A program made the position numbers and the translations under genes. Of a stretch of 64,000 nucleotides of DNA, positions 22,661 through 62,024 are shown in pieces. Within the stretch, counting starts at the first letter, position 1, and every line of letters begins with the position of its first letter. Source of the DNA: Chitinophagaceae bacterium (GTDB taxonomy: Bacteria; Bacteroidota; Bacteroidia; Chitinophagales; Chitinophagaceae); assembly GCA_019752045.1 (NCBI GenBank), contig JAIEMP010000012.1, forward strand, positions 124,001-188,000, in the 5' to 3' direction. The notes under the pieces were generated by a model that saw only the letters and a program-made list of their open reading frames with translations, searched no databases and had not been told where the DNA came from.

Positions 22661-22692
22661 GTCCACAGTCGATGGTCCATAGACCACAGACG
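22661..22692. repeat. Heptamer array, left flank of the four-helix-bundle gene
   Basis: Units GTCCACA-GTCGATG-GTCCATA-GACCACA-GAC have a strict 7-base period anchored by GTC/GAC. The matching array is on the other side of the gene at 23099. Confidence 0.8.
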
Positions 22693-22704
22693 AGTGTTTT
22701 AGTT

Positions 22705-23061
22705 TTAATCGTTTATTGAATTTATTAGTGCCTGAATCATTTTTACTAAGGTTTCAATTTGGTTATACAGTTTTGTAAACAACTCTTTCTCTACATAATT
22801 TCTTCGCTTTGCCAAAAATAAACAGCCAACAACTTCAAGTGCCGATCGGTTTGCAATGGAAAGAAATCGCCTAAACTCTGCGTTGGATAATCCTGTAGAA
22901 CCCTCAACAATATTCAAGGATACAGAGTTTGCAGCTTTGCGCATTTGACTTGACAACGAATAAAGCTCATGCGAAGGAAATGATTTTGCCAAAAAATCAA
23001 CATCATCCGTTAACTCTAACGATAGCTGCCACACTTTCAGATTTTCAAACTTAAACGCCAT
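22705..23061 (-). CDS. Four-helix-bundle protein, S23/23S rRNA intervening-sequence family
   Basis: This 118-residue helical protein from ATG 23061 (MAFKFENLKVWQLSLELTDD) carries the family pattern F..L.VW..S..L, LSSQMRKAANSVSLNIVEGS and a C-terminal helix. An in-frame ATG at 23088 lies upstream, but MAFKFENL is the usual family start. Family members were first seen inside intervening sequences of 23S rRNA genes and are now known as free-standing genes in Bacteroidota; the function is not established. Heptamer repeats lie on both sides, which hints that gene and repeats form one mobile or expanding unit. It interrupts the otherwise housekeeping stretch pssA to pepP. Confidence 0.88.
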   Translation of the reverse strand: MAFKFENLKVWQLSLELTDDVDFLAKSFPSHELYSLSSQMRKAANSVSLNIVEGSTGLSNAEFRRFLSIANRSALEVVGCLFLAKRRNYVEKELFTKLYNQIETLVKMIQALINSIND

Positions 23062-23098
23062 GTATAATTGATGACTTAAACATATCAAACTCTGCTAT

Positions 23099-23126
23099 CG
23101 ACCATTGACTGTTGACTGTCGACTAC
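23099..23126. repeat. Heptamer array, right flank of the four-helix-bundle gene
   Basis: C-GACCATT-GACTGTT-GACTGTC-GACTAC has the same 7-base period and GAC anchor as the array at 22661. It lies just before the aminopeptidase stop codon. Confidence 0.8.
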
Positions 23127-23127
23127 T

Positions 23128-24417
23128 TCATCTCTTCATCAACGCTTCAATCTCATCCACCGTCATCGGAATATTTTTCATGAGATCTTTATTTCCTGTT
23201 TTGGTGATCCACAGATTATTTTCAATACGTACCCCCATTTGTTCTTCTTCAATATAAATTCCGGGCTCTACTGTAAACACCATCCCTGCTTTGATGGGTT
23301 CTGTTTTTGTGCCAAGATCATGTACATCAATACCCAGATGATGCGAAATACCATGATATAAATATTTGCGGTAAGCTCTGTTCTCCGGGTCTTCATTTTT
23401 TACATCTGTTTTTTTCAATAACCCGATTTTTAAAAACTGCTGTGTCGCTTCTTCACCAACTTTATCTGTATAATCAACAATGGTAATACCCGGCTTCAAT
23501 AAACTTTTTGCATAATCATGCAAATGCAAACAGGCATTGTAAATTGTTTTCTGACGGCGACCAAATTTTCCACTCACCGGAACTGTACGTGTTAAATCTG
23601 CATTGTAGCCGCCATACTCCGCACCAAAATCCATCAATATCAATTCGCCTTCTTTACATTCCTGGTTATTGCTTACGTAGTGTAAGGTTCTGGCTCTGTC
23701 TCCACCTGCAATGATACTGCCGTAAGCCGGACCTGTTGAACCTTGTGATAAAAATGAATGATAAATCTCTGCTTCAATTTCATTTTCCAATATTCCCGGT
23801 TTTATAAACTGCAACAACCGGCGGAAAGCAACTTCAGTTATATCAATTGCTTTTTGAATCAGCTCCACTTCTTCTGCTGTTTTAACAGCACGCAGCTCTT
23901 TCATGATCTTTGCTGCACGTTGAAAATTGTGCAAGGGATATTTGTTTTTCATTTCATCAATGAAACGATAATCTCTGCTGCGGATGGATGATGCTTTGCG
24001 GTCGTTCTCATTGCTGCTTAAATAAATTGTATCTGCTAAATGAACCCATGTTTGCAACAAGGCTTCTATACTATCTAACCAAACAATTGTTTCAATTCCT
24101 GAAATGGCTCTTGCTTCATTTGCACGCAAACGTTTCCCATCCCATTTTTCTTTTAATTCGTTGGGACGAACCAACACCAGCACTTCTCTATACTTCGGAT
24201 CCGGATGATCGGGAAATAAAATTACCATACTGTCTTCCTGCATCACACCACTTAACCAAAACAGATCGCTGTTTTGTTTAAATGCATGCAGAGCATCGGC
24301 ATTCATGGGCCACTCATCGTTACTTACAAAAATGGCAATTGATTGAGGAAGCATTGCTTTTATAAAACGTTCCCTGTTTTTGCTGAAGAGCGCTGGTTTG
24401 ATGGGCTGAAATTTCAT
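23128..24417 (-). CDS. Xaa-Pro aminopeptidase (aminopeptidase P, M24B)
   Basis: This 429-residue protein has an N-terminal creatinase-like domain (residues 1-165) and a C-terminal pita-bread metallopeptidase. The dinuclear metal ligands are visible: Asp in LILMDFGAEYGGY, Asp in NADLTRTVPVSGK, His in YHGISHHLGIDVHDLG, Glu in VFTVEPGIYIEEE, Glu in MGVRIENNLWI. It cleaves N-terminal residues preceding proline. The length matches the family. It is monocistronic in appearance; TATTTTGC about 20 bp upstream of its start may be part of a promoter. Confidence 0.94.
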   Translation of the reverse strand: MKFQPIKPALFSKNRERFIKAMLPQSIAIFVSNDEWPMNADALHAFKQNSDLFWLSGVMQEDSMVILFPDHPDPKYREVLVLVRPNELKEKWDGKRLRANEARAISGIETIVWLDSIEALLQTWVHLADTIYLSSNENDRKASSIRSRDYRFIDEMKNKYPLHNFQRAAKIMKELRAVKTAEEVELIQKAIDITEVAFRRLLQFIKPGILENEIEAEIYHSFLSQGSTGPAYGSIIAGGDRARTLHYVSNNQECKEGELILMDFGAEYGGYNADLTRTVPVSGKFGRRQKTIYNACLHLHDYAKSLLKPGITIVDYTDKVGEEATQQFLKIGLLKKTDVKNEDPENRAYRKYLYHGISHHLGIDVHDLGTKTEPIKAGMVFTVEPGIYIEEEQMGVRIENNLWITKTGNKDLMKNIPMTVDEIEALMKR

Positions 24418-24652
24418 CCTTTATGTATTAGGTGTGCAAAATAGCATTTCGGTACTGCCTGCCCAATTCTGTGATGAAATAATCCACAGAAGGCATTAAA
24501 CTAACATGCGTTTGGATAAAGTTTATAAACCATCTACCCTCTCTTAGAATTAATTTAAAATACTCGTTCAATTGTTTTCAATTATTGAAAATATTTCATC
24601 ATTACAATTAAATTTCAGAATACTTTCTAATCGCAAACGGTTTCGGAATTTT

Positions 24653-24680
24653 TTTGGTTCTTGCTAAGCCTTTACATTTG
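24653..24680 (+). promoter_or_regulatory. Candidate promoter of pckA
   Basis: TTTG at 24653-24656 and TACATTTG at 24673-24680 match the Bacteroidota -33/-7 elements, with a rather short 16-base spacer. The ATG lies 27 bp past the -7 box. The rest of the 24418-24707 gap shows no other signal. Confidence 0.55.
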
Positions 24681-24707
24681 GCGCTGAATTAATACTCAAC
24701 AATTGCA

Positions 24708-26312
24708 ATGTCTATTCCAGGTATTTTTTTCCCGGAGCAAAAGCTCATTAAGCTGGGTTTAACGCATTCTGACAATATCCATTACCAGCTGGGCCCCGAA
24801 GAATTAGCTGCACAAACTGTTGCCCGTGGTCAAGGTGTTTATAATCATACGGGAGCGTTGTGCATTAATACCGGAAAGTTTACCGGCCGGTGCCCCAAGG
24901 ATAAGTTTATTGTTGAAGATCATCTCACTAAAGATACTGTTCACTGGAACGATTTCAATCAGCCCATTGATGAAAAGTACTTCCACATCCTGTACAAAAA
25001 GATGATGGATTATCTCGGTACCAAGGAGGAAATTTGGGTGAGAGATGCGTACGCCTGTGCCGATCCTGCATACCGGTTAAACATTCGTGTGATTAACGAA
25101 AATCCATGGAGCAATTTATTTGCACATAATTTATTTCTTCGTCCAACAGAAGATGAGCTTGAACATTTTGAAGCCGACTGGCATATTATTCAGGCACCGC
25201 ACTTTTATGCAAACCCCGAAACAGATGGTGTTCGCAGCAGCAATTTTTCTGTGGTAAGCTTTTCGCATAAAATGATTTTGATTGGCGGCTCCGGATACAC
25301 CGGTGAAATGAAGAAAGGAATTTTTACCGTTTTAAATTATCTGCTTCCTCAGAATAAAAAAGTATTAAGCATGCACTGCAGCGCCAATGTGGGTGAAGCT
25401 GGTGATGTTGCTGTGTTCTTTGGTTTAAGCGGAACAGGTAAAACAACTTTGAGTGCCGATCCGCACCGCAAACTGATTGGTGATGATGAACATGGCTGGG
25501 ATGAGCAGGGCATATTTAATTTTGAAGGAGGTTGTTATGCCAAGTGTATTGATTTGAGTGAAGAAAAAGAACCTGAAATTTTTAATGCAATTAAACCGGG
25601 TGCATTGGTTGAAAATATTCAGTTCTTTGCCGGTACAGATGAAATTGATTTCAGCAATAAATCCATTACTGAAAATACGAGAGTCAGTTACCCGTTACAT
25701 TTTATCAGCAATGCCTTGCATCCGGCGGTTGGCGGATTACCAAAAAATATTTTCTTTTTAACCTGCGATGCTACAGGAGTGTTGCCTCCGGTTGCAAAAT
25801 TAACGGAAGGACAGGCCATGTACCAGTTCATCAGCGGATATACAGCAAAAGTTGCAGGAACAGAAGCAGGAGTTACAGAACCAAAGAGTACGTTCAGTGC
25901 ATGTTTCGGTGCACCGTTTCTCCCTTTACATCCTGCAAAATATGCTGAGATGTTGGGTAAAAAAATGAAAGAACAGAAAGTGAATGTGTGGCTCATCAAC
26001 ACCGGTTGGACGGGTGGCAGTTACGGTACAGGCGAACGCATAAAACTTTCTTATACCAGAGCTTTGATCTGTGCTGTACTGAACGGCAGATTAAATAATG
26101 TGGCTTTTGAAAACATGCCCATCTTTAATTTTTCAATTCCGGTTGCATGCGATGGCGTTCCTGCAGAAATACTGAATCCTAAAAACACATGGACAGATAA
26201 AGCAGCTTATGATCAAAAAGCAAATGCTTTAGCTGAACAGTTTACAACTAATTTTAAAAAGTATGCTTCCGGCAGCGGTGAAGAAATTTTATCCGCAGCG
26301 CCGCAAGTGTAA
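24708..26312 (+). CDS. pckA: Phosphoenolpyruvate carboxykinase (ATP)
   Basis: This 534-residue protein carries the ATP-dependent PEPCK signatures: a substrate-binding ALCINTGKFTGRCPKDKFIV, the metal/PEP segment KKVLSMHCSANVGEAGD, the kinase-1a P-loop VFFGLSGTGKTTLSADPHRK, kinase-2 LIGDDEHGWDEQGIFNFEGG and the late adenine-binding TRVSYPLHFI. It converts oxaloacetate to PEP in gluconeogenesis, or runs backwards in PEP carboxylation in some Bacteroidota. The length is canonical. It is a single-gene unit between its promoter and a strong terminator. Confidence 0.97.
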   Translation: MSIPGIFFPEQKLIKLGLTHSDNIHYQLGPEELAAQTVARGQGVYNHTGALCINTGKFTGRCPKDKFIVEDHLTKDTVHWNDFNQPIDEKYFHILYKKMMDYLGTKEEIWVRDAYACADPAYRLNIRVINENPWSNLFAHNLFLRPTEDELEHFEADWHIIQAPHFYANPETDGVRSSNFSVVSFSHKMILIGGSGYTGEMKKGIFTVLNYLLPQNKKVLSMHCSANVGEAGDVAVFFGLSGTGKTTLSADPHRKLIGDDEHGWDEQGIFNFEGGCYAKCIDLSEEKEPEIFNAIKPGALVENIQFFAGTDEIDFSNKSITENTRVSYPLHFISNALHPAVGGLPKNIFFLTCDATGVLPPVAKLTEGQAMYQFISGYTAKVAGTEAGVTEPKSTFSACFGAPFLPLHPAKYAEMLGKKMKEQKVNVWLINTGWTGGSYGTGERIKLSYTRALICAVLNGRLNNVAFENMPIFNFSIPVACDGVPAEILNPKNTWTDKAAYDQKANALAEQFTTNFKKYASGSGEEILSAAPQV

Positions 26313-26343
26313 GTGGTCGTAATCGATTGTTTGCTAAGAACAA

Positions 26344-26369
26344 AAACCCCTCCATTCCTGGAGGGGTTT
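26344..26369. terminator. Bidirectional terminator between pckA and a convergent gene
   Basis: A 10-bp stem AAACCCCTCC / GGAGGGGTTT with loop ATTCCT is followed on the plus strand by AATTTTTT and on the minus strand by a T-rich stretch. It sits between two convergent genes. Confidence 0.88.
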
Positions 26370-26376
26370 AATTTTT

Positions 26377-26808
26377 TCATTCGTTTATTTTAATTCTTTT
26401 CCATGCTCGTACGCAGTGTCCATTCTGTTTTGCAGGAAACCATTTTCCTGACTTCTCAATGAGTTCAATCAGGTATTCCTCATATTTAGATGTTAGTCCT
26501 CTCGGAGTAATAATTTGTGTTTTACTGGTTTCACCATTCAACTCCACTATAAACCAAATTTCAATTACACCATCATAATTTTTTGGCTTTTTGAAATTTT
26601 TAGAAATATATTTTGCCCAGATTTCTTTACCGCCCGGGTACTGTGGCGGCTCCTGTACTATTGTGAAAACACTTTCTGGTGAATAAGACTCAGAAATTTT
26701 ACAGGTCATTGTATCACTACCAAAACGATAAACAGTATCAACTTTGTCTTGCGCAAATATGGCAAGAAAGGCAATTGTGAAAACTATAGTTAGTATTGGC
26801 TTTTTCAT
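26377..26808 (-). CDS. Secreted TonB C-terminal-like protein
   Basis: This 143-residue protein has a signal peptide (MKKPILTIVFTIAFLAIFAQ). The body contains PQYPGGKEIWAKYISKNFKK, then GVIEIWFIVELNGETSKTQI and ends with GKWFPAKQNGHCVRAWKRIK. This is the layout of the TonB C-terminal domain as found in many free periplasmic Bacteroidota proteins (P.YPGG......I......P......G.V...F.V...G). There is no membrane anchor or Pro-rich spacer, so it is not a full TonB. The partner is unknown. Its own gene seems to be followed by dNK on the same strand 15 bp upstream. Confidence 0.75.
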   Translation of the reverse strand: MKKPILTIVFTIAFLAIFAQDKVDTVYRFGSDTMTCKISESYSPESVFTIVQEPPQYPGGKEIWAKYISKNFKKPKNYDGVIEIWFIVELNGETSKTQIITPRGLTSKYEEYLIELIEKSGKWFPAKQNGHCVRAWKRIKINE

Positions 26809-26823
26809 ACACCGGAATAAAGA

Positions 26824-27459
26824 TTAAAACAATCCGTATAACTGTGAATCAATCTTGTTGATAATTTCGCCAAGATCTTCTTCGTTTTCTGCAAACTTGT
26901 TTTTATCAACATCAATCACCAGCAAACTGCCTTCTTTATAATTTTCAATCCACTTGTTGTAATACTCGTTGAGTTTTTTCAAATAATCAAGGCGGATATT
27001 TTCTTCGTACTCTCTTCCTCTTTTTTGAATTTGTGCAACCAATGTTGGCACCGATGCTTTGAGATAAATCAACAGATCGGGAGGCGATACCATGGTTTTA
27101 AGTGTTGCGAAAAAGGAGAAGTAATTATCAAAATCACGCTTGCCCATTAAACCCATGTCGTGCAGGTTGGGTGCAAAAATATGTGCATCTTCAAAAATGG
27201 TACGATCCTGAATAACAGTTTCGGTACCACGCTGTATATCCAGCACCTGATTTAATCGGTTGTTCAAAAAATAGATCTGCAGGTTAAAACTCCAGCGGGG
27301 CATATCCTCATAAAAATCGTTGAGGTAGGGATTATGATCCACGTCTTCAAACTGAGGGATCCATTTGTAATGCTTGGCCAGCATCTCCGTTAAGGTTGTT
27401 TTTCCGGCGCCGATGTTACCGGCTATTGCCACATGTTTTGGTTTTTTACTTTTTGCCAT
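26824..27459 (-). CDS. Deoxynucleoside kinase (dNK family)
   Basis: This 211-residue P-loop kinase shows Walker A at about residues 14-21 (AGNIGAGKTTLTEMLAKH), the deoxyribose-binding DHNPYLNDFYEDMPRW, the ERS/DR-type motif VIQDRTIFEDAHIF, and the LID arginine segment KRGREYEENIRLDYLKKLNE. It phosphorylates deoxyadenosine, deoxyguanosine or deoxycytidine for dNTP salvage; the exact substrate cannot be read from sequence. A family A repeat is 1 bp upstream of the start. Confidence 0.92.
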   Translation of the reverse strand: MAKSKKPKHVAIAGNIGAGKTTLTEMLAKHYKWIPQFEDVDHNPYLNDFYEDMPRWSFNLQIYFLNNRLNQVLDIQRGTETVIQDRTIFEDAHIFAPNLHDMGLMGKRDFDNYFSFFATLKTMVSPPDLLIYLKASVPTLVAQIQKRGREYEENIRLDYLKKLNEYYNKWIENYKEGSLLVIDVDKNKFAENEEDLGEIINKIDSQLYGLF

Positions 27460-27460
27460 A

Positions 27461-27485
27461 TAACCCCTATCCCCAAAGGGGAATG
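27461..27485. repeat. Family A short repeat next to the dNK start codon
   Basis: TAACCCCTATCCCCAAAGGGG is a short palindrome of the CCCC...GGGG family, directly upstream of the kinase ATG. Confidence 0.6.
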
Positions 27486-27546
27486 ATTTATGAGTTTACA
27501 ATTTATAATTTACTACATCCATTAAAAACTAAGATAGATTTTTTTT

Positions 27547-27570
27547 GCTCCCCTTCAGGGGATGGGGGCA
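27547..27570. repeat. Family A short repeat overlapping the trpS 3' end
   Basis: CTCCCCTTCAGGGGATGGGGG is the inverted counterpart of the copy at 27461. It contains the trpS stop codon, so the last TrpS residues (APIP) are encoded by the repeat. Confidence 0.65.
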
Positions 27571-28592
27571 AAATAATTCAGCCCTATTGCCTGTCTTACA
27601 AGCTCAATTGTTTTTCGTGCACTGATACCTGCTTTTTCAGCCCCTTTCAGCATCACATTTTTTAAATATACTTCATCATGCTGGATAGCGATTGCTTTTT
27701 CACGGATAGGTGCAACAAACAGAGCAATGTCTTCGCCCAGTTGTTTTTTCATATCACCATAGCGAATGGTACAAGTGTTGAAATCTTCCTCAAATTTCTG
27801 CACAGCATCGGGGCTGCTCACCAATCGCATCAGCTGAAAAAGATTCTCAATATAATCAGGCTTTACTGCGTTGGGTTCGATTGGTCCGGCATCCGTTTTT
27901 GCTTTCAACACTTTCTTCTTAATCACTTCATCGGTATCGGCCAGATAAATGGTTGCATTCTGGTTTTCGCTCTTACTCATTTTTCCTGTACCATCAAGAC
28001 TGGGCACCTTCACCAGTTCGCCACCAAAATTAAATGCCACGGGTTCGGGAAACACATCACCATAACGATGGTTGAAACGGTTGGCAAATGTGCGGGCCAT
28101 TTCCAGATGTTGTTCCTGATCTTTCCCTACAGGAACATATGTAGCACGGTGTAAAATAATATCGGCTGTTTGTAAAACAGGATAGGTTAATAAACCTGCA
28201 TTTACATTCTCCGGCTGTAACCGAACTTTATCTTTAAAGGTGGTGGTTTTCTCCAGCTCGCCTTTATACGCCATCATATTTAAATACAAATACAGTTCGG
28301 CTGTTTCATGAATATGACTCTGGCAATAGAAAGCAACTTTTTCCGGATCTAATCCACAGGCAATGTTTTCTGCAAACACTCTTTTTACATTTTCCCGCAG
28401 CTCTTTTGTATCGGGATGGGTTGTTAACGAATGCAGATCGGCCACCATAAAATAACACTCATACTGCTCCTGCATTTTTACATAATTCTGCATGGCACCA
28501 AAATAATTACCCAGATGCAAATAACCGGTTGGGCGGATGCCACTCATGACAATCTGTTTGCCTGCAGGCATGGTTTCTGTCTGACTACTCAT
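27555..28592 (-). CDS. trpS: Tryptophanyl-tRNA synthetase
   Basis: This 345-residue class I synthetase shows the HIGH-like segment RPTGYLHLGNYFGAMQNYVK at about residue 20-38, the KMSKS loop in DGTGKMSKSENQNATIYL near residue 203, and PVGKDQEQHLEMARTFANRF. It charges tRNA-Trp. The C-terminus ends in repeat-derived APIP, replacing the usual tail. A -7-like TATCTTCG lies about 35 bp upstream. The start at MSSQTETMPAGKQIV gives about ten residues more than many family members, so MPAGKQ is an alternative. Confidence 0.96.
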   Translation of the reverse strand: MSSQTETMPAGKQIVMSGIRPTGYLHLGNYFGAMQNYVKMQEQYECYFMVADLHSLTTHPDTKELRENVKRVFAENIACGLDPEKVAFYCQSHIHETAELYLYLNMMAYKGELEKTTTFKDKVRLQPENVNAGLLTYPVLQTADIILHRATYVPVGKDQEQHLEMARTFANRFNHRYGDVFPEPVAFNFGGELVKVPSLDGTGKMSKSENQNATIYLADTDEVIKKKVLKAKTDAGPIEPNAVKPDYIENLFQLMRLVSSPDAVQKFEEDFNTCTIRYGDMKKQLGEDIALFVAPIREKAIAIQHDEVYLKNVMLKGAEKAGISARKTIELVRQAIGLNYFAPIP

Positions 28593-28626
28593 ATATCTTC
28601 TAAAATTTCAGCCTTTTGTAAGTGGG

Positions 28627-28634
28627 CGAAGATA
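28627..28634 (-). promoter_or_regulatory. Candidate -7 element of trpS
   Basis: TATCTTCG on the minus strand, one base off TAnnTTTG, ends 35 bp before the trpS ATG. Confidence 0.4.
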
Positions 28635-28682
28635 ATGAGAGTTTTGCAGGAAAGAGTAGCGCATTTTCATGTGCTTTAAAAC

Positions 28683-28714
28683 ACAAAACCCTCTTGCATG
28701 CAAGAGGGTTTTGT
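28683..28714 (-). terminator. Perfect 32-bp palindrome acting as terminator of the OmpA-family gene
   Basis: ACAAAACCCTCTTGCA is followed at once by its exact reverse complement. The hairpin is 17 bp past the porin stop codon, and the arms provide U-rich ends in both directions. Confidence 0.82.
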
Positions 28715-28730
28715 TATCATTCAAAAACGA

Positions 28731-34848: not shown

Positions 34849-36168
34849 TTATAAAGATACGTTTGCACCCAATACTTTCAAATGCTCATAAAAATCAGGA
34901 TAGGATTTATTGATCGCTTCAGCTTCTTCGATCGTGACACTTCCTTCTGCTTTTAACGCAGCAACTGCACAAGCCATTGCAATACGATGATCGTGGCGTG
35001 AATGTACAGTTGCTCCTTTCAATCCGCCACCGCCATTAACGATCATGAGGTCATCCTGCAGCTCAATTGTTACACCCAGCTTCGCAAATTCTTCCTGCAA
35101 GGTGATTGCACGGTTGCTTTCTTTATGCGTTAAACGTGTTGTGCCTTCTATCACTGTTTTTCCATTGCAATAAGCTGCCAACGCAACCAACGGCGGAAAC
35201 AGATCCGGACATTCTGTTGCATTAAAATGAAAGCCCCTAACCCCTAAAGGGGGATAACCAATTTCTATCTGTTCATTACTTACAGATAGTATGCATCCGC
35301 AATCCATTAATGCTTCAAGAATTTTTTTATCGGCTTGTGTTGAAAACACATCCAATCCTTTCACCACAATATTTCCTGCAACCGCACCTGCAACAAGTAA
35401 GAATGCAGCACCACTCCAATCGCCTTCTACTGTGTAAGTCCTGAGCGAAGTCGAAGGATTTACATCGGAAGATTGAGCGGAGTCGAAATCTGCAGCGGAG
35501 TCGAAATCTGATTTCGCAAAATAAAACGATTCGTAATTTTTATTCTCCGGCACTTTCAAACCAAACTGTTTCATTACATCGAGTGTAAGATCAATATATG
35601 GTTTGCTTTTAAGATTGGTAACTGTAATGGATACATCACTTGCATTGCTTGCCGCATATGCCAGCAACAATCCGGTTAAGAACTGCGAGCTGAGTGAACC
35701 ATCAATGGTAATATTTTTTGGAACAATTGGGCCTTGAATATTCAAAGGCAATTTGCCTTGATTGCTTTTTACATGAACATCAAGCTGTGGCAAGATCTCA
35801 TCAAAGAAATCCATTGGTCTTGTTGTTAAACTGCCAGTACCATTTACTGTAAGTGCATGATTGCTTAACGCAACCAATGGTGTAAACATGCGGATGCTCA
35901 AACCACTTTCTCCGCAATTAATTTCACTGCTTACCGGTTGCACGCCATTGCTTTCAATGATGAGTTCGCTTCCGTTATTTGTAACAGTGGCGCCTAAGCG
36001 TTGCGTAATATCCATCGCCGCTTTATCATCGTTACTATGACCGGGATTATTAATAATGCTTTTACCCTTTGCAACCAACGCAGCAGCACATGCACGCTGC
36101 ATCGAACTTTTTGATGCGTTCGATTGAATGGTTCCTGTGAGTGTGGATGGTTGTATTGTTACTTTCAT
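34849..36168 (-). CDS. aroA: EPSP synthase (3-phosphoshikimate 1-carboxyvinyltransferase) with two repeat insertions
   Basis: This 439-residue enzyme has NASKSSMQRACAAAL, GESGLSIRMFTPLVALS, the GSLSSQFLTGLLLA segment, VEGDWSGAAFLLVAGA, ECPDLFPPLVALAAYC and DHRIAMACAVAAL. Two stretches do not belong to the family. About residues 219-244 are translated from CTTCGACT-type repeats (family B: three GAGCGRAGTCGAA cores, nt 35438-35510). About 304-313 come from a family A repeat (YPPLGVRGF, nt 35229-35257). Both keep the frame and fall near loop or strand borders (just before VEGDW and just before the ATECPD segment). The enzyme is probably still active. Confidence 0.95.
   Translation of the reverse strand: MKVTIQPSTLTGTIQSNASKSSMQRACAAALVAKGKSIINNPGHSNDDKAAMDITQRLGATVTNNGSELIIESNGVQPVSSEINCGESGLSIRMFTPLVALSNHALTVNGTGSLTTRPMDFFDEILPQLDVHVKSNQGKLPLNIQGPIVPKNITIDGSLSSQFLTGLLLAYAASNASDVSITVTNLKSKPYIDLTLDVMKQFGLKVPENKNYESFYFAKSDFDSAADFDSAQSSDVNPSTSLRTYTVEGDWSGAAFLLVAGAVAGNIVVKGLDVFSTQADKKILEALMDCGCILSVSNEQIEIGYPPLGVRGFHFNATECPDLFPPLVALAAYCNGKTVIEGTTRLTHKESNRAITLQEEFAKLGVTIELQDDLMIVNGGGGLKGATVHSRHDHRIAMACAVAALKAEGSVTIEEAEAINKSYPDFYEHLKVLGANVSL
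35229..35257. repeat. Family A repeat inside aroA
   Basis: AAAGCCCCTAACCCCTAAAG followed by GGGG lies within the coding sequence and is translated in frame. It resembles the copies at 37245 and 38510. Confidence 0.8.
35438..35510. repeat. Three family B repeat cores inside aroA
   Basis: Cores GTCCTGAGCGAAGTCGAAGG (35438-35457), TTGAGCGGAGTCGAAATC (35473-35490) and GCAGCGGAGTCGAAATCTG (35492-35510) lie in direct orientation. They are the same family that flanks the GIY-YIG gene at 60.3-60.9 kb. Confidence 0.85.
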
Positions 36169-38718: not shown

Positions 38719-38830
38719 AACATTCTCATTGCTTATCACTAATTATTCATCTTCAACTTCAGTCAATATGTTGATCGTTGGTTTGTTGCTAAAAACAAAA
38801 ACAACTGTTGCACATCATTCTTCCGCCGGG

Positions 38831-38864
38831 TTATCCCCTCCCGGGAGGGGCTTGGGGTGGGTTA
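38831..38864. repeat. Full-length family A repeat at the DUF559 3' end
   Basis: TTATCCCCTCCCGGGAGGGG is followed by CTTGGGGTGGGTTATC, the best consensus copy: a perfect CCCCTCCCGGGAGGGG palindrome plus a GGGGTGGG tail. It encodes the last residues and stop of the DUF559 gene. Confidence 0.85.
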
Positions 38865-39307
38865 TCACGTTTTCTGCTTTTGGGAAGCTCCAAAAGTTTT
38901 CTTTTACGTTTAACCATTTCACTCACCCCATTCTTTTCTTCAAACTCAAAGATCCAGTTCTCAATAGTTCTTATTACATTTTTCATATCATGCACAACAT
39001 CTAATGCATTAAACCGAAGAAATGAAATTCCATACACTTCTATTTCATCCTGTCGTATCGGATCCTTCAACAATACTTTTTCATCTTCATGAGTGATGCC
39101 ATCCACTTCAATTGCAAGCATTAAGTCTTTACAATAAAAATCAACGATATAGTTCAGCATGGGTTTTTGCCTATCGAAATCATAACCCATCATACTTCCG
39201 TTTCTTAACTCCATCCACAACTTCACTTCAGAGTAGGTCATATTTTGCCGGAGGCGTTTTGCATACTCCATTGCCTGTTGCGTGTATGGAATGATTTTAC
39301 GTTTCAT
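38831..39307 (-). CDS. DUF559 (Vsr/REase-like) endonuclease-domain protein
   Basis: From ATG 39307 (MKRKIIPYTQQAMEYAKRLR) the protein has 158 residues. The nuclease fold motifs are E in MTYSEVKLWMELRN, the conserved MGYDFDRQKPMLNYIVDFYC with the catalytic Asp, and the E-x-D of LMLAIEVDGITHEDE. The last ten residues (DNPPQAPPGRG end) are translated from a family A repeat. An upstream TTG extends the frame but also into a repeat. Related DUF559 genes are widespread and unassigned; they are similar to very-short-patch-repair nucleases. It breaks up the aromatic block and lies between family A copies at 38831 and 39351. Confidence 0.9.
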   Translation of the reverse strand: MKRKIIPYTQQAMEYAKRLRQNMTYSEVKLWMELRNGSMMGYDFDRQKPMLNYIVDFYCKDLMLAIEVDGITHEDEKVLLKDPIRQDEIEVYGISFLRFNALDVVHDMKNVIRTIENWIFEFEEKNGVSEMVKRKRKLLELPKSRKRDNPPQAPPGRG

Positions 39308-39350
39308 GTTTACCCACCCCTGTTGATTAGTATGCAAGTTTTACACGCTG

Positions 39351-39371
39351 CAGCCCCTCCAGTGAGGGGAT
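39351..39371. repeat. Family A repeat upstream of DUF559
   Basis: CAGCCCCTCCAGTGAGGGGAT lies upstream of the nuclease start, so the gene is flanked by the same family on both sides. Confidence 0.75.
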
Positions 39372-39396
39372 AGACACTCCGATAACTCATCACTGA

Positions 39397-49150: not shown

Positions 49151-49660
49151 TTAATACATTGAATTTACTGCACGGCTGTAACTAGCGAAAACTGCTACGT
49201 ACAAAATAATCCATAACAGCAAACCAATTCCGGCACCAATCCATGCAGATTTAACACGATTGTCATCGCTACCTTCTCTGGTTAAATAAGCAATTAAAAC
49301 ACCTACCCAGCTCAGCACAAGACCAACAATCAACCACAGGAAATTAATACCGCCACCGGCTTTCTTTCCCATTTCGGCCATGTTTACTTCTTTGCCTTTT
49401 TTCAATTGTTTTTTTACCTCCATTTGTGCCATTTTCAAAGAAACCTTTTGGCCAAATGTCATTTTCTTTCCGGTAAGTTCCTGCACTTTTGCAGGCGTTA
49501 GTGAAAGAAAAGTTTTTGCATCTAACTGACCCAATACATTTGCAGCAGAAGTTTTTCCGGCTTTCGCATTGTCAGTTGAATTTGATGGAACATAAATCAT
49601 TCCTGCGTTAGATGAGATGCTGAACGCAACAGCGAGTAATAAGATGGTAATCTTTCTCAT
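49151..49660 (-). CDS. Small membrane protein, tandem paralog A
   Basis: This 169-residue protein has a signal peptide (MRKITILLLAVAFSISSNAG) and a variable mature start (MIYVPSNSTDNAKAGKTSAA). A conserved Lys-rich region follows (LTGKKMTFGQKVSLKMAQME, VKKQLKKGKEVNMAEMGKKA), then GGGINFLWLIVGLVLSWVGV and a last hydrophobic segment. Topology: periplasmic N-domain with two C-terminal TM segments. I do not recognise a functional family, though proteins with similar GGGINFLWLIVG regions are common in Bacteroidota. It is about 80% identical to the next gene, so the pair is a recent tandem duplication. Confidence 0.75.
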   Translation of the reverse strand: MRKITILLLAVAFSISSNAGMIYVPSNSTDNAKAGKTSAANVLGQLDAKTFLSLTPAKVQELTGKKMTFGQKVSLKMAQMEVKKQLKKGKEVNMAEMGKKAGGGINFLWLIVGLVLSWVGVLIAYLTREGSDDNRVKSAWIGAGIGLLLWIILYVAVFASYSRAVNSMY

Positions 49661-49782: not shown

Positions 49783-50292
49783 TTAATATTCATACACAGC
49801 AGAGCTGGCTAATAAAACAAAAAACACCACATAAAAAACAATCACCAAGAGTGCAGAAATACCAAAACCGATCCAGGCTGATTTAAGACGGTTATCATCT
49901 GATCCTTCATTTGTAAGATAAGCAATCAACACACCAATTAACCCAAGTGCAAAGCCAACAATCAACCAAAGAAAGTTAATACCGCCGCCGGCTTTCTTTC
50001 CTATTTCGGCCATGTTAACGGCTTTTCCTTTTTTCAATTGTTTTTTTACTTCGAGCTGAGCCATTTTTAAGGTAACCTTTTGACCAAAGTTGAGTCTGGT
50101 TCCTGTAAGTTCCTGCACTTTGGCAGGTGTTAATGCAAGAAAGGTTTTTACATCTAACTGTCCCAATACATTTGCTGCGGAAGTCTTCCCTGCTTTTGCA
50201 TTATCAGTAGAATTTGCAGGTACATAAATCAATCCGGCATGGGCGGAAATGCTGCATACCGCAGCAAGAATAAAGAGTGAAATTACTTTCAT
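49783..50292 (-). CDS. Small membrane protein, tandem paralog B
   Basis: This 169-residue copy of the gene downstream on the same strand has the same signal-peptide layout and LTGTRLNFGQKVTLKMAQLE, VKKQLKKGKAVNMAEIGKKA, GGGINFLWLIVGFALGLIGV, NEGSDDNRLKSAWIGFG. Differences cluster in the last TM segment and the tail (VFFVLLASSAVYEY). The 122-bp gap between the two is AT-rich without a clear terminator, so they may be transcribed together. Function unknown. Confidence 0.75.
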   Translation of the reverse strand: MKVISLFILAAVCSISAHAGLIYVPANSTDNAKAGKTSAANVLGQLDVKTFLALTPAKVQELTGTRLNFGQKVTLKMAQLEVKKQLKKGKAVNMAEIGKKAGGGINFLWLIVGFALGLIGVLIAYLTNEGSDDNRLKSAWIGFGISALLVIVFYVVFFVLLASSAVYEY

Positions 50293-55636: not shown

Positions 55637-55659
55637 TTGAAAGCTTCGGTACTGAGCAA

Positions 55660-57597: not shown

Positions 57598-57668
57598 GTA
57601 GTGGTTTAGTTTCCACAGGTTGTACATGTTGTTGCATGAACAATGGATCGAATGGTGTAAATATAAGC

Positions 57669-58829
57669 TTACAGATCTTCAGGTGCAGTTATATTCAGAT
57701 TCTGCTTTAATTTAGAATTTACAGGCTTGCCGTCTTTTGTTGCAGGAGTCCATTTTAATTCTTTCTCAAATTTTTCTTTTACCACTTTATTTAGTTCAGC
57801 ATAACCTCCACGTATAACCGTTGCCAATGCTGTTTTGCCTTCTTTATCTACAATAAATTCAACCTGTAAAGACATGGATGCATTGCCATTGAGCATTGGT
57901 ACTAACTCCTTGCTCAAATTAAACAACCAACGTTGCAATGCTGCATTGCCGTCTTTATAAAAAGGAACAATATCAACTTTATCTTCCAGACTCCAGGCGA
58001 CGTATGGATCAGCGGGATTGTTGGTTTCAATAATTTTTATCCTTGTGATTTTTGGTGTTTCAGGATTGGTTGCTACAACGTATCCGCCGTTTTTTCCAAT
58101 CAATACAGTTGGCAACTGATGCGTATCTTCAAAATATTCGTATGCCTCTCTGATTTCAGATGCAAACTTCTGCACCTCCTGCTTGTTTTTTGTTTTGTTG
58201 CTGAACAATTCAATTGCTTTGCTATTATCGTAACGCAACGGATAAATATGCACGGGTATAAAATCCTGACCCTGTTCTTTTACAACTGATGCCAGATAAT
58301 AAACCTGTTCAATTAGTGAATCAGTTAAAGGCAAACAACCAATGGTTACACAATTACCATGAATATAAATATCACCACCGGGTTTATGCTGATCACTCAA
58401 AATAGCATCCGATGCATTTGGATAATTTAAACCCAGCGCCAGATGATAATTACTGTTGGGATTAAACTCATTGATGTAATAAAATCCTTCGGGTATTTGT
58501 TTATCGCCTTCTTTACGTTTAGGACCGTAAGTTCCTGAAGTAGCACAAACCTTATATACCTTAAACAGGCTGAAGGTTTCTTTCCAGTCGTTCTTAACCC
58601 AAACCTCCATTTGCTTTTCATGCTTAAAGGCTCTTACATACATGTACTTTGCAGGCCAGTGCAATCCTTTTTCCTTAAACTCTTTTTTTAATGAATCTTC
58701 CACCTTCGCAAACATGGAAGGGGCTTTGAACAGTTTTACGGGAGAACCCTCTACAGCATATTGCGCAGAAAGATCTGCAACAATAACAGTAGATAGAAAA
58801 AAGAAGAATAAAAAGACTTTTTGAAGCAT
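57669..58829 (-). CDS. Secreted YkuD L,D-transpeptidase fused to a TonB C-terminal-like domain
   Basis: This 386-residue protein has a signal peptide (MLQKVFLFFFFLSTVIVADL). The catalytic YkuD part spans about 60-200: PEGFYYINEFNPNSNYHLAL, and the active site IYIHGNCVTIGCLPLTD with H157 and C165 visible. About 290-386 resemble a TonB C-terminal/energy-transducer-like domain (MSLQVEFIVDKEGKTALATV, LKWTPATKDGKPVNSKLKQN). The fusion is unusual to me. It likely modifies cell-wall cross-links in the periplasm. The neighbour downstream on the same strand is the Gly-rich T9SS gene, 40 bp away. Confidence 0.87.
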   Translation of the reverse strand: MLQKVFLFFFFLSTVIVADLSAQYAVEGSPVKLFKAPSMFAKVEDSLKKEFKEKGLHWPAKYMYVRAFKHEKQMEVWVKNDWKETFSLFKVYKVCATSGTYGPKRKEGDKQIPEGFYYINEFNPNSNYHLALGLNYPNASDAILSDQHKPGGDIYIHGNCVTIGCLPLTDSLIEQVYYLASVVKEQGQDFIPVHIYPLRYDNSKAIELFSNKTKNKQEVQKFASEIREAYEYFEDTHQLPTVLIGKNGGYVVATNPETPKITRIKIIETNNPADPYVAWSLEDKVDIVPFYKDGNAALQRWLFNLSKELVPMLNGNASMSLQVEFIVDKEGKTALATVIRGGYAELNKVVKEKFEKELKWTPATKDGKPVNSKLKQNLNITAPEDL

Positions 58830-58976
58830 ACTGGATTTTTAATGAACGATGCAGGTTCAAAAATATTTCAAAATGTTGATAAAATTAAACGAAATGAGCC
58901 GTAAGAGGAAGATCATTCGTTGAACCGGTTCAAAACGAAGTTGTTGCGGCTGAAATGAGGAAGATTTAATACATGA

Positions 58977-58999
58977 AAAGGGGGCAGTAAAACTGCCCC
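58977..58999 (-). terminator. Terminator of HPPD gene
   Basis: Stem GGGGCAGT / ACTGCCCC with a 3-base loop; the minus-strand arm is followed by TTTTCAT. Confidence 0.8.
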
Positions 59000-59005
59000 G
59001 TATTT

Positions 59006-60136
59006 TTACAGATTTCCTCTTGCCTCCTGCTCTCTTTCTATTGCTTCGAATAACGCTTTAAAATTGCCTTTACCAAAACTTTGTGCGCCTTTTCGTTGAA
59101 TGATTTCAAAAAACAAGGTTGGGCGGTCTTCTACCGGTTTGGTAAAAATCTGCAGCAAATATCCTTCCTCATCTCTGTCAACCAAAATACCCAGCTCTTT
59201 CAATGGTTGCAGGTCTTCATCAATATGCCCTACACGGTCTAATAAATCATCATAATAAGAGGTGGGCACCTGCAGAAATTCTACCCCTCTGCTGCGCAGA
59301 GCCATTACTGTTTCAACAATATTGTTGGTAGCCATTGCCACATGCTGTACACCTTCGCCATTATAATAATCCAGATATTCTTCTACCTGCGATTTTTTCT
59401 TTCCTTCAGCAGGTTCATTAATGGGAAATTTTACATAACCATTTCCATTACTCATCACCTTGCTCATTAAAGCTGAATATTCTGTTGAAATATCGTTATC
59501 ATCAAACGTTAAAATATTCCGGAAACCCATTACGTTTTCGTAAAACTGTACCCATGGATTCATCTGGTTCCATCCTACATTCCCTACACAATGATCTACA
59601 TACTGCAATCCTGTTTCTTCAACTTTAAAATAAGGATTGCTCCATGCACGATAGCCGGGCAGAAATACACCCTTGTAATTTTTTCGTTCAACAAACAAAT
59701 GAACGGTATCTCCGTAGGTATGAATACCACTGATGACTACTTCTCCTTCTGCATCTGAAAGAACAGTTGCTTCTTTGTATGGCCTTGCCCCACGGATGGT
59801 TGTTTCATTAAATGCACTCTTTGCATCATCTACTTTTAACGCTAATACTTTTACTCCGTCGCCATGTTTATAAATATGATCGGCCATTTCATTTCCCGAA
59901 CGAAGCGGTGTAGTTAATACAATCGTTAATTTATTTTGACGCACAGCATAACTGGCGATCTCTTTCATTCCTGTTTCGGGGCCCGCATATGCCAATGGCT
60001 GAAAACCAAAAGCAGAGATATAATAATGTGCCGCCTGTTTGGCATTACCTACATAAAATTCTACGTAATCTGTTCCGTGAAGAGGAAGAAAATCGTTTTG
60101 TACAGCTTCTTTTCTGTTAACTGCTATGGTTGACAT
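59006..60136 (-). CDS. hppD: 4-Hydroxyphenylpyruvate dioxygenase
   Basis: This 376-residue protein has two VOC modules. The iron ligands are visible as His in QYVDHCVGNV, His in GVQHVAMATNN and Glu in TLFFEIIQRKG near the C-terminus. RPTLFFEIIQRKGAQSFGKG is the family end. It converts 4-hydroxyphenylpyruvate (the TyrA product) to homogentisate in tyrosine breakdown. No homogentisate dioxygenase is adjacent. The length matches the family. Confidence 0.95.
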   Translation of the reverse strand: MSTIAVNRKEAVQNDFLPLHGTDYVEFYVGNAKQAAHYYISAFGFQPLAYAGPETGMKEIASYAVRQNKLTIVLTTPLRSGNEMADHIYKHGDGVKVLALKVDDAKSAFNETTIRGARPYKEATVLSDAEGEVVISGIHTYGDTVHLFVERKNYKGVFLPGYRAWSNPYFKVEETGLQYVDHCVGNVGWNQMNPWVQFYENVMGFRNILTFDDNDISTEYSALMSKVMSNGNGYVKFPINEPAEGKKKSQVEEYLDYYNGEGVQHVAMATNNIVETVMALRSRGVEFLQVPTSYYDDLLDRVGHIDEDLQPLKELGILVDRDEEGYLLQIFTKPVEDRPTLFFEIIQRKGAQSFGKGNFKALFEAIEREQEARGNL

Positions 60137-60205
60137 GATTGTTATTTTTTATTCAATAAAAGTGAAACAAAAACCGGTTCGGCAGAATGAACCTTTCTCA
60201 AACAA

Positions 60206-60295
60206 TCAGATAGCGTCAATGGCCAATACTTCCATCAGCAAACAATAGTTGCTGCGTTTATCGTTGAAGCGTTTACTGGCATAATCGGGATGCAT
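60206..60295 (-). pseudogene. Short frame resembling the 3' end of a lost gene
   Basis: A minus-strand frame gives MHPDYASKRFNDKRSNYCLL and MEVLAIDAI before TGA 60208-60206. The frame is open upstream but runs at once into family B repeats (60333 on). It may be a gene remnant cut by repeat insertion, a tiny ORF, or chance. I do not recognise a family. Confidence 0.2.
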
Positions 60296-60332
60296 GAAGC
60301 AAAGGTAATTATTTATTTGAACGTGATGCAAG

Positions 60333-60381
60333 ACCCTGAGCGGAGTCGAAGGGGCGGTTCAGGAAATCGAGCGGAGTCGAG
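60333..60381. repeat. Two family B repeats upstream of the GIY-YIG gene
   Basis: ACCCTGAGCGGAGTCGAAGG (60333-60352) and ATCGAGCGGAGTCGAG (60366-60381) are direct copies of the core found in aroA at 35438-35510. Confidence 0.85.
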
Positions 60382-60410
60382 ATTTACAGAACAAATATTT
60401 AACTTAACAT

Positions 60411-60749
60411 ATGGTTTACAAAGACATTGTGCAGGAGGTATATTACGTTTACATTATCGAATGCAAAGATGGTTCATTTTACACGGGACTAACAAATGAT
60501 TTGATTCGGCGATTCAATGAACACTGTGATGGAATGTATCCTTCCTGTTATACATTTAAACGAAGACCTCTTTTGCTGAAATATTATGAAACAATCCCTT
60601 TTTTGTTAGAAGCTACACAAAGAGAACTGCAATTAAAAGGTTGGTCGAGAGCAAAAAAAATTGCTTTGGTGGAAAATAATTTTCATAAACTCACTTTACT
60701 GGCTCAATGTCAAAATTTATCTCATTCTAAGTTTAAGGATTTTAAATAA
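60411..60749 (+). CDS. GIY-YIG endonuclease family protein
   Basis: This 112-residue protein has the GIY-YIG core VYYVYIIECKDGSFYTGLTN (Y and Y-T-G motifs), NDLIRRFNEHCDGMYPSCYT and FLLEATQRELQLKGWSRAKK with the conserved Glu and Arg/Lys (KGWSRAKK). Family members in Bacteroidota are small and of unknown role; some relatives are repair or mobile-element nucleases. The gene sits between family B repeats on both sides (60333-60381, 60751-60823), the only coding DNA between them. A promoter could not be found. The ATG at 60411 could be preceded by an earlier one at 60290, but the core starts here. Confidence 0.88.
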   Translation: MVYKDIVQEVYYVYIIECKDGSFYTGLTNDLIRRFNEHCDGMYPSCYTFKRRPLLLKYYETIPFLLEATQRELQLKGWSRAKKIALVENNFHKLTLLAQCQNLSHSKFKDFK

Positions 60750-60750
60750 A

Positions 60751-60770
60751 GTTCTCGACTTCGCTCGAAC
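60751..60770. repeat. Family B half-palindrome after the GIY-YIG gene
   Basis: GTTCTCGACTTCGCTCGAAC lies directly after the nuclease stop codon, in opposite orientation to the copies upstream. Confidence 0.75.
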
Positions 60771-60781
60771 TTTATACATGA

Positions 60782-60823
60782 CCCTTCGACTCCCGTAAAA
60801 GACGGGACAGGTTCGCTCAGGGC
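60782..60823. repeat. Family B repeat with an internal hairpin
   Basis: CCCTTCGACTCCCGTAAAAG followed by ACGGGACAGGTTCGCTCAGG and G forms a stem (CCCT...AGGG) around CCCGT/ACGGG. It is the most complete copy in the window. Confidence 0.8.
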
Positions 60824-60872
60824 CAAACATCCTACCTTACAATAACCTCACTCAGCGTCAGGCCTCCTGCCT

Positions 60873-60880
60873 TATCTTTG
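60873..60880 (+). promoter_or_regulatory. -7 element of purK deciding its start
   Basis: TATCTTTG followed by C is a perfect TAnnTTTGC box. The first ATG (60885) is only four bases downstream, upstream of any plausible transcription start. Transcription would start around 60887, so the ATG at 60900 is preferred. Confidence 0.6.
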
Positions 60881-60899
60881 CGCCATGCACTCTTCGACT

Positions 60900-62024
60900 A
60901 TGCTCAGAATTGGTATCCTCGGCGGCGGACAATTAGGCCGTATGTTATTACAGGCAGCTGCAAATTATCCGGTTGAAACATTTGTTCTTGAAAACGATGA
61001 GCATTGCCCTGCAGCACATCTCTGTCATCATTTTACAAAAGGCGACATTACAGATTTTGAAACTGTTTACAATTTCGGAAAAGGTCTTGATGCATTAACC
61101 ATCGAAATTGAACGTGTAAATGTAGAAGCGCTTGAAAAATTAGAAGCAGAAGGAGTGAAAGTATTTCCAAAACCATCTGCACTTCGTATCATCAACAATA
61201 AAATTGAACAAAAGAAATTTTATCAGCAACATCATATCCCAACTGCAGAATTTATAATCACCCATAATAAAAGCGATCTCAAAACACATCTCTCCTTTTT
61301 ACCTGCAGCGCACAAATTAGGCATAGGTGGTTATGATGGAAGAGGTGTAGAGCTATTAAGAAACGAAGCCGATCTTGAAAAAGGGTTTGATGAACCATCG
61401 GTTCTGGAAAAACTGGTGAATATTCAAACAGAAATTGCTGTAATTGTTGCTGTGGCACAAAATGGAGAAACTACCATGTATCCCCCCGCCGAAATGGTGT
61501 TTGATCCACATTTAAATTTACTGGACTATCAGATTTCGCCTGCTCAACTTTCTGAAAAAACATTGTGGAAAACAGAAGCCATTGCGATGGAACTTGTTCG
61601 CAAATTTAATTCGCCCGGCTTATTTGCTGTTGAACTGTTTGTAGATAAAAACGGCAATGTGCTGGTAAACGAAACTGCTCCCAGAGTACACAACAGCGGC
61701 CATCACAGTATTGAAGGTAATTACTCATCGCAGTTTGACATGTTGTGGCGCATCATGCTGGGTTATCCGCTTGGTTGTACCGATGCTGTTTTACCTGCAG
61801 TGATCTTAAATATTATTGGTGAAAAAGGTTACAGTGGACCGGCTTATTATGAAGGACTGGAAGATGTATTAAAAATGGAACATGTATTTGTACACCTCTA
61901 CGGAAAAGCACAAACAAAACCCGGACGTAAAATGGGCCATGCTACGGTTATAGGTAAAGATCGCAGCGAACTAACGTATAAAGCCAACCGTATTAAACAT
62001 TTATTAAAAGTAAAAACGATCTGA
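60900..62024 (+). CDS. purK: 5-(Carboxyamino)imidazole ribonucleotide synthase
   Basis: From ATG 60900 (MLRIGILGGGQLGRMLLQAA) the protein has 374 residues. It is an ATP-grasp enzyme with LTIEIERVNVEALEKLEAEG, LGIGGYDGRGVELLRNEADL, VLVNETAPRVHNSGHHSIEG and the end HVFVHLYGKAQTKPGRKMGH. It carboxylates AIR with ATP and bicarbonate in purine synthesis. A family B-like repeat (TCTTCGACTATGCTCAG, 60891-60907) overlaps the start codon, so the start may be repeat-derived. purE is not adjacent. The upstream in-frame ATG at 60885 lies too close to the -7 box. Confidence 0.95.
   Translation: MLRIGILGGGQLGRMLLQAAANYPVETFVLENDEHCPAAHLCHHFTKGDITDFETVYNFGKGLDALTIEIERVNVEALEKLEAEGVKVFPKPSALRIINNKIEQKKFYQQHHIPTAEFIITHNKSDLKTHLSFLPAAHKLGIGGYDGRGVELLRNEADLEKGFDEPSVLEKLVNIQTEIAVIVAVAQNGETTMYPPAEMVFDPHLNLLDYQISPAQLSEKTLWKTEAIAMELVRKFNSPGLFAVELFVDKNGNVLVNETAPRVHNSGHHSIEGNYSSQFDMLWRIMLGYPLGCTDAVLPAVILNIIGEKGYSGPAYYEGLEDVLKMEHVFVHLYGKAQTKPGRKMGHATVIGKDRSELTYKANRIKHLLKVKTI

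Follow-up and report, generated by a model that had tools for sequence, protein, structure and literature searches.

Three small genes flanked by inverted copies of class-specific short repeats in Chitinophagaceae: candidate minimal mobile cassettes

Introduction

In a 64,000-nucleotide stretch of DNA from a Chitinophagaceae bacterium (GenBank assembly GCA_019752045.1, contig JAIEMP010000012.1, positions 124,001 to 188,000 of the forward strand; the whole stretch is hereafter referred to as the window), three small genes are each located between copies of a different short repeat. They encode an S23-type four-helix-bundle protein, a DUF559 nuclease, and a GIY-YIG nuclease. This arrangement raises the question of whether genes and repeats belong together and, if so, what kind of element they form. 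The reading favored here, to which a probability of roughly 60% is assigned, is that all three represent minimal mobile cassettes, each consisting of one small gene embedded between inverted copies of its own kind of repeat. The gene–repeat pairing, the inverted anatomy, the recurrence of the insertion sites, the patchiness within genera, and the conservation of nuclease residues all point to small selfish cassettes.

Three Genes and Their Flanking Repeats

The S23 (23S_rRNA_IVP) four-helix-bundle gene is located on the minus strand at 22705..23088 (PF05635, E 1.4e-32; nearest solved structure PDB 2gsc (Xcc0516), E 3e-12), between two inverted heptamer arrays to which no strand is assigned, the left one at 22658..22692 and the right one at 23099..23126. 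By eye, its start is probably an ATG near 23061, downstream of the start of the longest open reading frame (ORF). Heptamer arrays of this GAC type occur in the window around S23 only.

The DUF559 nuclease gene, whose product is taken to be Vsr/PD-(D/E)XK-like, is harbored by the minus strand at 38831..39337 (PF04480, E 6.3e-27, with a weaker match to MTES_1575; nearest solved structure PDB 3hrl, E 5.3e-14), and its likely start is an ATG near 39307, again probably downstream of the longest ORF start (by eye). The left, inverted end of the cassette is the family A palindrome P2 (38828..38864, minus strand), which includes the stop codon of the ORF, and the right end is the family A repeat P3 (39311..39380, plus strand), the cassette being about 580 bp long. 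A direct copy, P1 (38659..38725, plus strand), lies outside the cassette and aligns with a lone copy in a congener (genome G083).

The GIY-YIG gene, encoding a UPF0213-like single-domain nuclease, is located on the plus strand at 60411..60749 (PF01541, E 1.7e-16; nearest solved structure PDB 1zg2, E 1.8e-12). Its left flank carries two family B hairpins on the plus strand, CCCT-GAG-N6-CGA-AGGG (60334..60353) and AAATC-GAG-N6-CGA-GATTT (60364..60385); its right flank carries, on the minus strand, a third hairpin embedding the stop codon of the gene (60747..60774) and a family B-like element interrupted by a second small hairpin (60782..60822). The DNA folding energies of several single hairpins of the window are unremarkable. 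The earlier note on this stretch had placed each of the three genes between copies of its own repeat family, and both the genes and the flanking repeats are confirmed where it located them.

Specificity of the Pairing

The pairing was analyzed in 147 genomes belonging to the family of the window, among which S23 genes were found in 112, DUF559 genes in 76, and GIY-YIG genes (using the window protein as query) in 85. A total of 190 gene copies were fetched, i.e., 63 S23, 63 DUF559, and 64 GIY-YIG loci. The flanks of the first 30 loci per class (L001-L090) were inspected by eye, and, since the exact motifs of the window were too narrow as general detectors across genomes, class detectors were built after this inspection. 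The class-specificity counts pool inspected and held-out loci; as the detectors were designed on L001-L090, the cleanest independent counts are those from 100 held-out loci, from 29 phylum-wide DUF559 loci, and from the ParE and RAYT controls.

The held-out set comprised 33 S23, 33 DUF559, and 34 GIY-YIG loci in stretches of up to 20 kb, and the score applied to it was free of any motif: 300 bp to the left of the gene were compared with 300 bp to the right, and the best local match in inverted orientation was taken; 99 of the 100 loci were scored, one GIY-YIG locus being excluded for its short flank. Against 660 random placements made for each class, 25/33 S23, 22/33 DUF559, and 20/33 GIY-YIG loci scored above the 95th percentile. 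With the same score in the wider set, short-flank loci left out, the values were 49/62, 44/63, and 39/61, respectively. At 30 ParE loci of the same family, used as a negative control, inverted flanks were detected in two and any of the three repeat types in none, whereas the positive control, 30 loci of Y1/RAYT-type transposases of the same family, exhibited inverted flanks in 15/30. In these 30 Y1 loci, neither two-sided family A hairpins nor two-sided heptamers were found, nor was a GAG..CGA hairpin on any side. As observed by eye, RAYT-type genes have their own distinct repeats, of the GTCCCGTAGGGAC and GCTCCTACGGAGC types, at L373, L385, L388, and other Y1 loci; one genome (G116) harbors ten places of equal Y1 transposase score, as expected from recent amplification.

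The repeat types also differ between the classes. Period-7 arrays on both flanks were present in 24/63 S23 loci, in none of the 63 DUF559 and 64 GIY-YIG loci, and in four of 1000 control placements. Hairpins with pyrimidine (C/T) and purine (G/A) arms on both flanks were detected in 47/63 DUF559 loci, in 0/63 S23 loci, in 1/64 GIY-YIG loci, and in 0/1000 controls. Hairpins of the form [stem >=4]-GAG-N-CGA-[stem'] were found on any flank in 26/64 GIY-YIG loci (S23 1/63, DUF559 0/63, control 2/1000) and on both flanks in 17/64, with none for S23 or the controls. The held-out score, the three detectors, and the ParE and RAYT controls thus strongly support a class-specific pairing; the question of whether the repeats are equally dense around unrelated genes was tested as well, and equal density was not found.

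These counts also bear on the idea that the repeats are ordinary intergenic features, such as terminators, RNA stabilizers, or phase-variable regulators, which border small accessory genes by chance. The GC-rich hairpins are indeed terminator-like, S23 genes are located within operons, and heptamer arrays near start codons were read as regulatory in Beggiatoaceae in the available part of PMC4679880. On the other hand, no repeat of the three types was detected at the 30 ParE loci and two-sided ones only at 4, 0, and 0 of 1000 random placements, the DUF559 repeats are translated in frame within conserved enzymes, and neither the inverted symmetry of the two sides nor the private pairs of S23 arrays would be accounted for. 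This explanation is therefore regarded as very improbable.

As for whole genomes, the expectation of the earlier note that repeats track the presence of their gene held in part: the repeats are commoner in gene-carrying genomes, and some genomes have the repeats without the gene. In Fisher tests, which ignore phylogeny and genome size, the strong form of family A was present in 33/76 genomes with DUF559 vs. 7/71 without (p 5e-6), the AAGT heptamer in 50/112 genomes with S23 vs. 2/35 without (p 1e-5), and family B in 56/85 genomes with GIY-YIG vs. 23/62 with no GIY-YIG match (p 8e-4). The reversed heptamer pattern, used as a control, also gave many matches in some genomes, since it is probably itself another array unit.

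DUF559 Cassettes Embedded in Enzyme Genes

In 35 of the 63 loci the DUF559 gene is part of an open frame longer than 230 aa, measured from stop to stop; the Pfam scan covered 20 of these ORFs. In the scanned ORFs, host domains were recognized on both sides of DUF559 for LeuRS, MetRS, AroC, MetH, homocysteine methyltransferase, methylmalonyl-CoA mutase/MeaB, GcpE, CinA, an Lhr-type helicase, and HsdR, and on one side only for an amino-acid kinase, an M23 peptidase, and a nucleotidyl transferase. In L127, L148, L142, and L130 the recognized host domain is one-sided relative to DUF559, so that instead of insertions these cases may represent fusions or run-on frames. No intein/Hint family was present among the Pfam matches (E <= 1e-8) of the 20 scanned ORFs. 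The HsdR ORF of a type I restriction system at L031 (G052:C9) contains both a GIY-YIG and a DUF559 domain.

The LeuRS gene offers two recurrent insertion points, at which DUF559 is found in different genera. The first, directly after GAEI.F and ahead of the editing domain, is occupied in 14/29 aligned rows and the second, directly ahead of ETNTMPG, in 5/29, values which are not frequencies since the genomes were picked partly for having DUF559. The first point is filled in G000 and empty in its congener G083, while at the second point G000, G044, G133, G124, and G059 have only a short insert that resembles, by eye, a translated palindrome. In the DUF559 tree, many forks of which are weak, hosts and insertion points are interleaved, and separate DUF559 lineages are found at the same LeuRS point. 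The residues E16, D46, E57, D59, and H63, presumably catalytic, are conserved in 63/63 DUF559 sequences. As for the cassette of the window, its flanks are contiguous in G083, with a single palindrome between them, and another contig of G083 harbors a 77%-identical cassette matching window positions 38795-39376, both palindromes included.

The same organization extends beyond the family. Phylum-wide, DUF559 was present in 109/198 genomes; among the 29 newly fetched loci, palindromes were found on both sides in 24 and on at least one side in 28, and the phylum-wide DUF559 genes in frames longer than 230 aa had both palindromes in 11/11 cases. DUF559 was co-directional with both neighbors in 17/37 cases.

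It might be argued that in-frame DUF559 sequences are functional domains of the host enzymes, i.e., editing or regulatory modules, and not mobile at all. The sharing of some insertions within a genus agrees with this idea, as in the case of MetH in G040 and G130, whose DUF559 sequences are nearly identical. However, roughly twelve host families with no relation to one another are interrupted or bordered by the same nuclease, a relative of the same genus may be devoid of the insert (as G083 is at the first LeuRS point), copies from different hosts interleave in the tree, and free-standing DUF559 copies carry the same palindromes, so that of all the explanations considered here this one appears the least credible. 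Judged from the sequences compared, DUF559 is probably a mobile cassette, often located in frame within the genes of essential enzymes.

The GIY-YIG Gene and Its Hairpins

Among all the inner trinucleotide pairs in the GIY-YIG flanks, (GAG,CGA) with its reverse complement ranks first, and 20 of the 22 top-ranked loci by closeness to the GIY-YIG gene of the window carry the GAG..CGA hairpin. Of the 183 occurrences of GAG-N3..7-CGA in GIY-YIG flanks, 81 have complementary arms of at least 4 bp; among mispaired arms the proportion is 2.2%, and in the remaining parts of the held-out loci it is 19/1177. All four Watson–Crick pairs were seen at each of six arm positions (183 occurrences, chance pairs included), and 23 different inner stems were counted. 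The covariation of the arms, together with the variety of stems, indicates that the sequence of the stem varies freely under a conserved GAG..CGA top; the GIY-YIG repeat is thus, as far as covariation can tell, a fold, in which a tandem G.A motif with a G-C closing pair could arise where GAG faces CGA.

The residues Y25, G27, R35, H39, and E76, which we also take to be catalytic, are kept in 58 of the 59 stop-free rows (64 rows in all). The gene was co-directional with both neighbors in 21/53 cases. Three tandem GIY-YIG matches, spaced by about 370 bp, are located at G051:C19:258626-259574.

S23 Paralogs and Their Arrays

The genome to which the window belongs harbors 16 S23 matches, 15 of them above the family cut-off and one with an internal stop. 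By eye, the array unit varies between these paralogs and is mirrored on the two sides of each. In 14 of the 16 copies the best partner of the left flank is the right flank of the same copy, the observed sum being reached by none of 20000 permutations.

The extent to which an array unit accompanies related proteins was checked for one copy, L005. A GGCA array on any flank was present in 9/9 sequences at >=70% identity (L005 included), 38/68 at 60-70%, 2/20 at 50-60%, and 3/65 below, against a background of 37/1452. A set of 80 named relatives of L005 (56-80% identity) was also assembled, i.e., the best 80 of 557 confirmed, to which the following values refer. The array was found in 26/26 of those whose titles are not Bacteroidota (25 titled as other phyla and one as 'uncultured bacterium'), all of which are contigs of metagenome-assembled genomes, so that misbinning is possible. 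Inverted flanks exceeded the 95th percentile of the controls in 43/54 Bacteroidota and 22/26 other relatives. The two-sided lag-7 test was negative in this set (0/54 Bacteroidota, 1/26 others), because the unit is often 8 bp long (by eye).

In the window, the S23 gene is located outside any rRNA gene, its neighbors being a CDP-OH_P_transf gene and an M24/AMP_N peptidase gene. S23 genes were co-directional with both neighbors in 51 of the 59 called copies. In the family set, the predicted RNA duplex between matched flanks had a mean of -42.1 vs. -28.2 kcal/mol for mispaired flanks, with 35/77 copies below the 5th percentile of the mispaired ones. At equivalent sites compared by eye, gene-less inverted arrays were seen in two cases (L127, L228), an array remnant in three (L148, L098, L112), and neither in two (L136, L181). 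Most of the rows that look empty, namely those with long gaps, are loci whose S23 gene is absent from the table; short-gap rows were judged by eye, and the names of some of these sites (argC-argD, leuA-leuB) were assigned by eye as well.

Two A/T-rich short-unit arrays of the window (12192-12218 and 21609-21635), of the ATTTTCAAATCTTCAAAT type and similar to the flanks of the S23 copies L239 and L242, are probably solo S23-type arrays. S23 genes were also found on plasmids: four cyanobacterial ones, among 31 plasmid records with a match, have inverted short arrays by eye. In Anabaena sp. 90 plasmid pANA02 (L358), an S23 gene with such arrays is located in a type I-D CRISPR locus, with cas6 on one side and cas4 on the other, which is consistent with the S23-type genes noted in cas loci in the available part of PMC3936711.

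The earlier note had also proposed a parallel with repetitive extragenic palindromic (REP) systems. This fits DUF559 and GIY-YIG; the S23 arrays, on the contrary, are mostly a private pair per paralog and not one dispersed family, and by analogy the intervening sequence (IVS) of 23S rRNA would be the better parallel for S23.

Evidence against the Cassettes and the Passenger Hypothesis

Several observations weigh against the interpretation of the three units as cassettes. No target-site duplication was defined for them. In the window, family A is also located away from DUF559 (26347, 41510, 42940, 43071) and family B away from GIY-YIG (35443-35496). The detectors leave 16/63 DUF559 loci without a two-sided hairpin and 38/64 GIY-YIG loci, mostly the more distant ones, without the strict GAG..CGA hairpin. 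The repeat pattern occurs in genomes lacking the corresponding gene (7/71 for DUF559, 2/35 for S23, 23/62 for GIY-YIG), and 6 of the 62 genomes with no GIY-YIG match harbor at least 10 copies of family B. For 78 S23 copies compared across different sites, the correlation between protein and array similarity is weak (rho 0.083; 13/500 permutations at or above the observed value). The GGCA array was found in just 15 of the 54 Bacteroidota among the best 80 of 557 relatives of L005, many relatives from Flavobacterium and Aquimarina having a different array unit by eye. Lastly, the single-palindrome place of G083 may be explained equally well by an insertion or by a deletion between the direct copies P1 and P3.

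Some of these points agree with a different hypothesis, namely that the repeats are moved or amplified by a RAYT or another transposase, and that the small genes, trapped between repeat copies through recombination or by chance, have since traveled with them as passengers. Many repeat copies are distant from the genes, Y1 transposases are present in 107/147 family genomes (with eight matches in the genome of the window), and the G083 place retains a single palindrome. It is difficult to reconcile with this hypothesis that the repeat type is particular to each gene class, with those of the other classes nearly absent, that the same detectors found none of the three types at 30 RAYT-type and 30 ParE loci, and that the catalytic residues of both nucleases are conserved, which would be unnecessary to the repeats if the genes were mere passengers. 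The passenger hypothesis is thus considered unlikely, even if it is the least improbable of the three alternatives, and minimal mobile cassettes remain the preferred interpretation.

Comparison with Known Systems

It is known that, in REP/RAYT systems, the gene of a Y1 (HUH) transposase lies between inverted copies of short hairpin repeats, solo copies of which are found elsewhere. The cassettes described here share the short hairpin repeats, the inverted copies around the gene, and the solo copies; unlike REP/RAYT systems, they encode a DUF559 or GIY-YIG nuclease or a four-helix bundle (PF04480, PF01541, PF05635) instead of a Y1 protein, and their three repeat types are absent from the 30 Y1 loci of the same family. 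Homing endonucleases and inteins, in turn, have a patchy distribution, their nuclease genes repeatedly occupying the same conserved positions of essential genes. DUF559 behaves like homing endonucleases in being patchy, in recurring at the same conserved sites of essential genes, and in keeping its active-site residues; it differs from them in having neither intron nor intein, in remaining in the open frame of the host, and in being flanked by palindromes. Homing nucleases borne by rRNA genes are dealt with in the available part of PMC11270868.

According to the available part of PMC4990558, the IVS of 23S rRNA has an S23 ORF between terminal inverted repeats (a 28-bp stem, 428 nt), is excised by RNase III in vitro, and has a function and an origin that are called unclear, a mobile element being among the hypotheses proposed; the S23 protein is suggested not to be made in vivo. 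As far as that text allows a comparison, the S23 units described here are similar in having one S23 ORF (PF05635), inverted ends capable of forming a stem, and a length of about 470 bp vs. 428 nt, and different in being located in protein operons, with up to 16 matches per genome, and in having ends made of arrays of a short unit that varies from one paralog to the next.

The palindromic elements of Rickettsia are described in the available part of PMC10969869 as in-frame palindromes of about 150 bp in unrelated protein genes. The in-frame DUF559 cassettes and, by eye, the short palindrome-like LeuRS inserts recall them, with the difference that a conserved nuclease is located here between two palindromes, in a unit of about 580 bp, and that no nuclease is mentioned for Rickettsia in that part of the source. 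Intergenic TAACTGA heptamer repeats are known from Beggiatoaceae, Cyanobacteria, and Bacteroidetes (PMC4679880, available part), i.e., from phyla overlapping with those of the S23-linked heptamer arrays, which are intergenic too; there, a single heptamer is central and S23 has no occurrence in the text available, whereas many units were found here, with S23 between inverted arrays. No report linking these genes to these repeats was found in a literature search covering titles and the beginnings of abstracts, with preprints and most subscription papers outside its coverage, and DUF559, though named in 14 papers altogether, was not found in any title or abstract in that search.

Other Repeats of the Window

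At 11602-11699 there are two 47-bp direct copies, in each of which CATCACTCATC-like units precede a stretch of the CGTCTGACG type. Two neighboring 300-bp stretches (49188-49487 and 49820-50119) share 75% identity and resemble a tandem duplication.

Proposed Mechanism and Significance

On the basis of the pairing, we infer that each protein recognizes its own repeats and drives their spread. The DUF559 and GIY-YIG proteins might nick or cut DNA at the hairpin of the repeat or at an unoccupied site, and the repair of the cut might then copy the cassette in; this would represent homing, or a REP-like mobilization, without intron, intein, or HUH transposase. Repeat ends that are free of stop codons and in frame would allow DUF559 to be carried inside LeuRS, AroC, or MetH, where it would form a loop that the enzyme tolerates. 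No nuclease domain is seen in S23; this protein might bind its private arrays, and the S23 transcript might be excised as a stem by RNase III in an IVS-like manner; such an excision of RNA is conceivable because S23 genes are co-directional within operons and their ends are able to pair in RNA.

A more general view, which is put forward only tentatively and whose chances fall somewhat short of even, is that the one-gene mobile elements of bacteria fall into three or more independent classes, in each of which a small protein is encoded between inverted copies of the repeat that it recognizes and no known transposase is used. DUF559 would be a splicing-free homing nuclease residing as a translated loop in essential enzymes; GIY-YIG would read a hairpin fold topped by GAG..CGA on any stem; and S23 would comprise many specificities, with a short-unit address for each paralog, the IVS of 23S rRNA being the special case that was seen first.

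If this is true, abundant short repeats and three protein families of unclear function would gain a partner and hence a testable role, S23 proteins and the intervening sequences of 23S rRNA would be linked to an element that is widespread and has private arrays in inverted orientation, and a nuclease would be able to spread through essential genes by residing in frame rather than by splicing.

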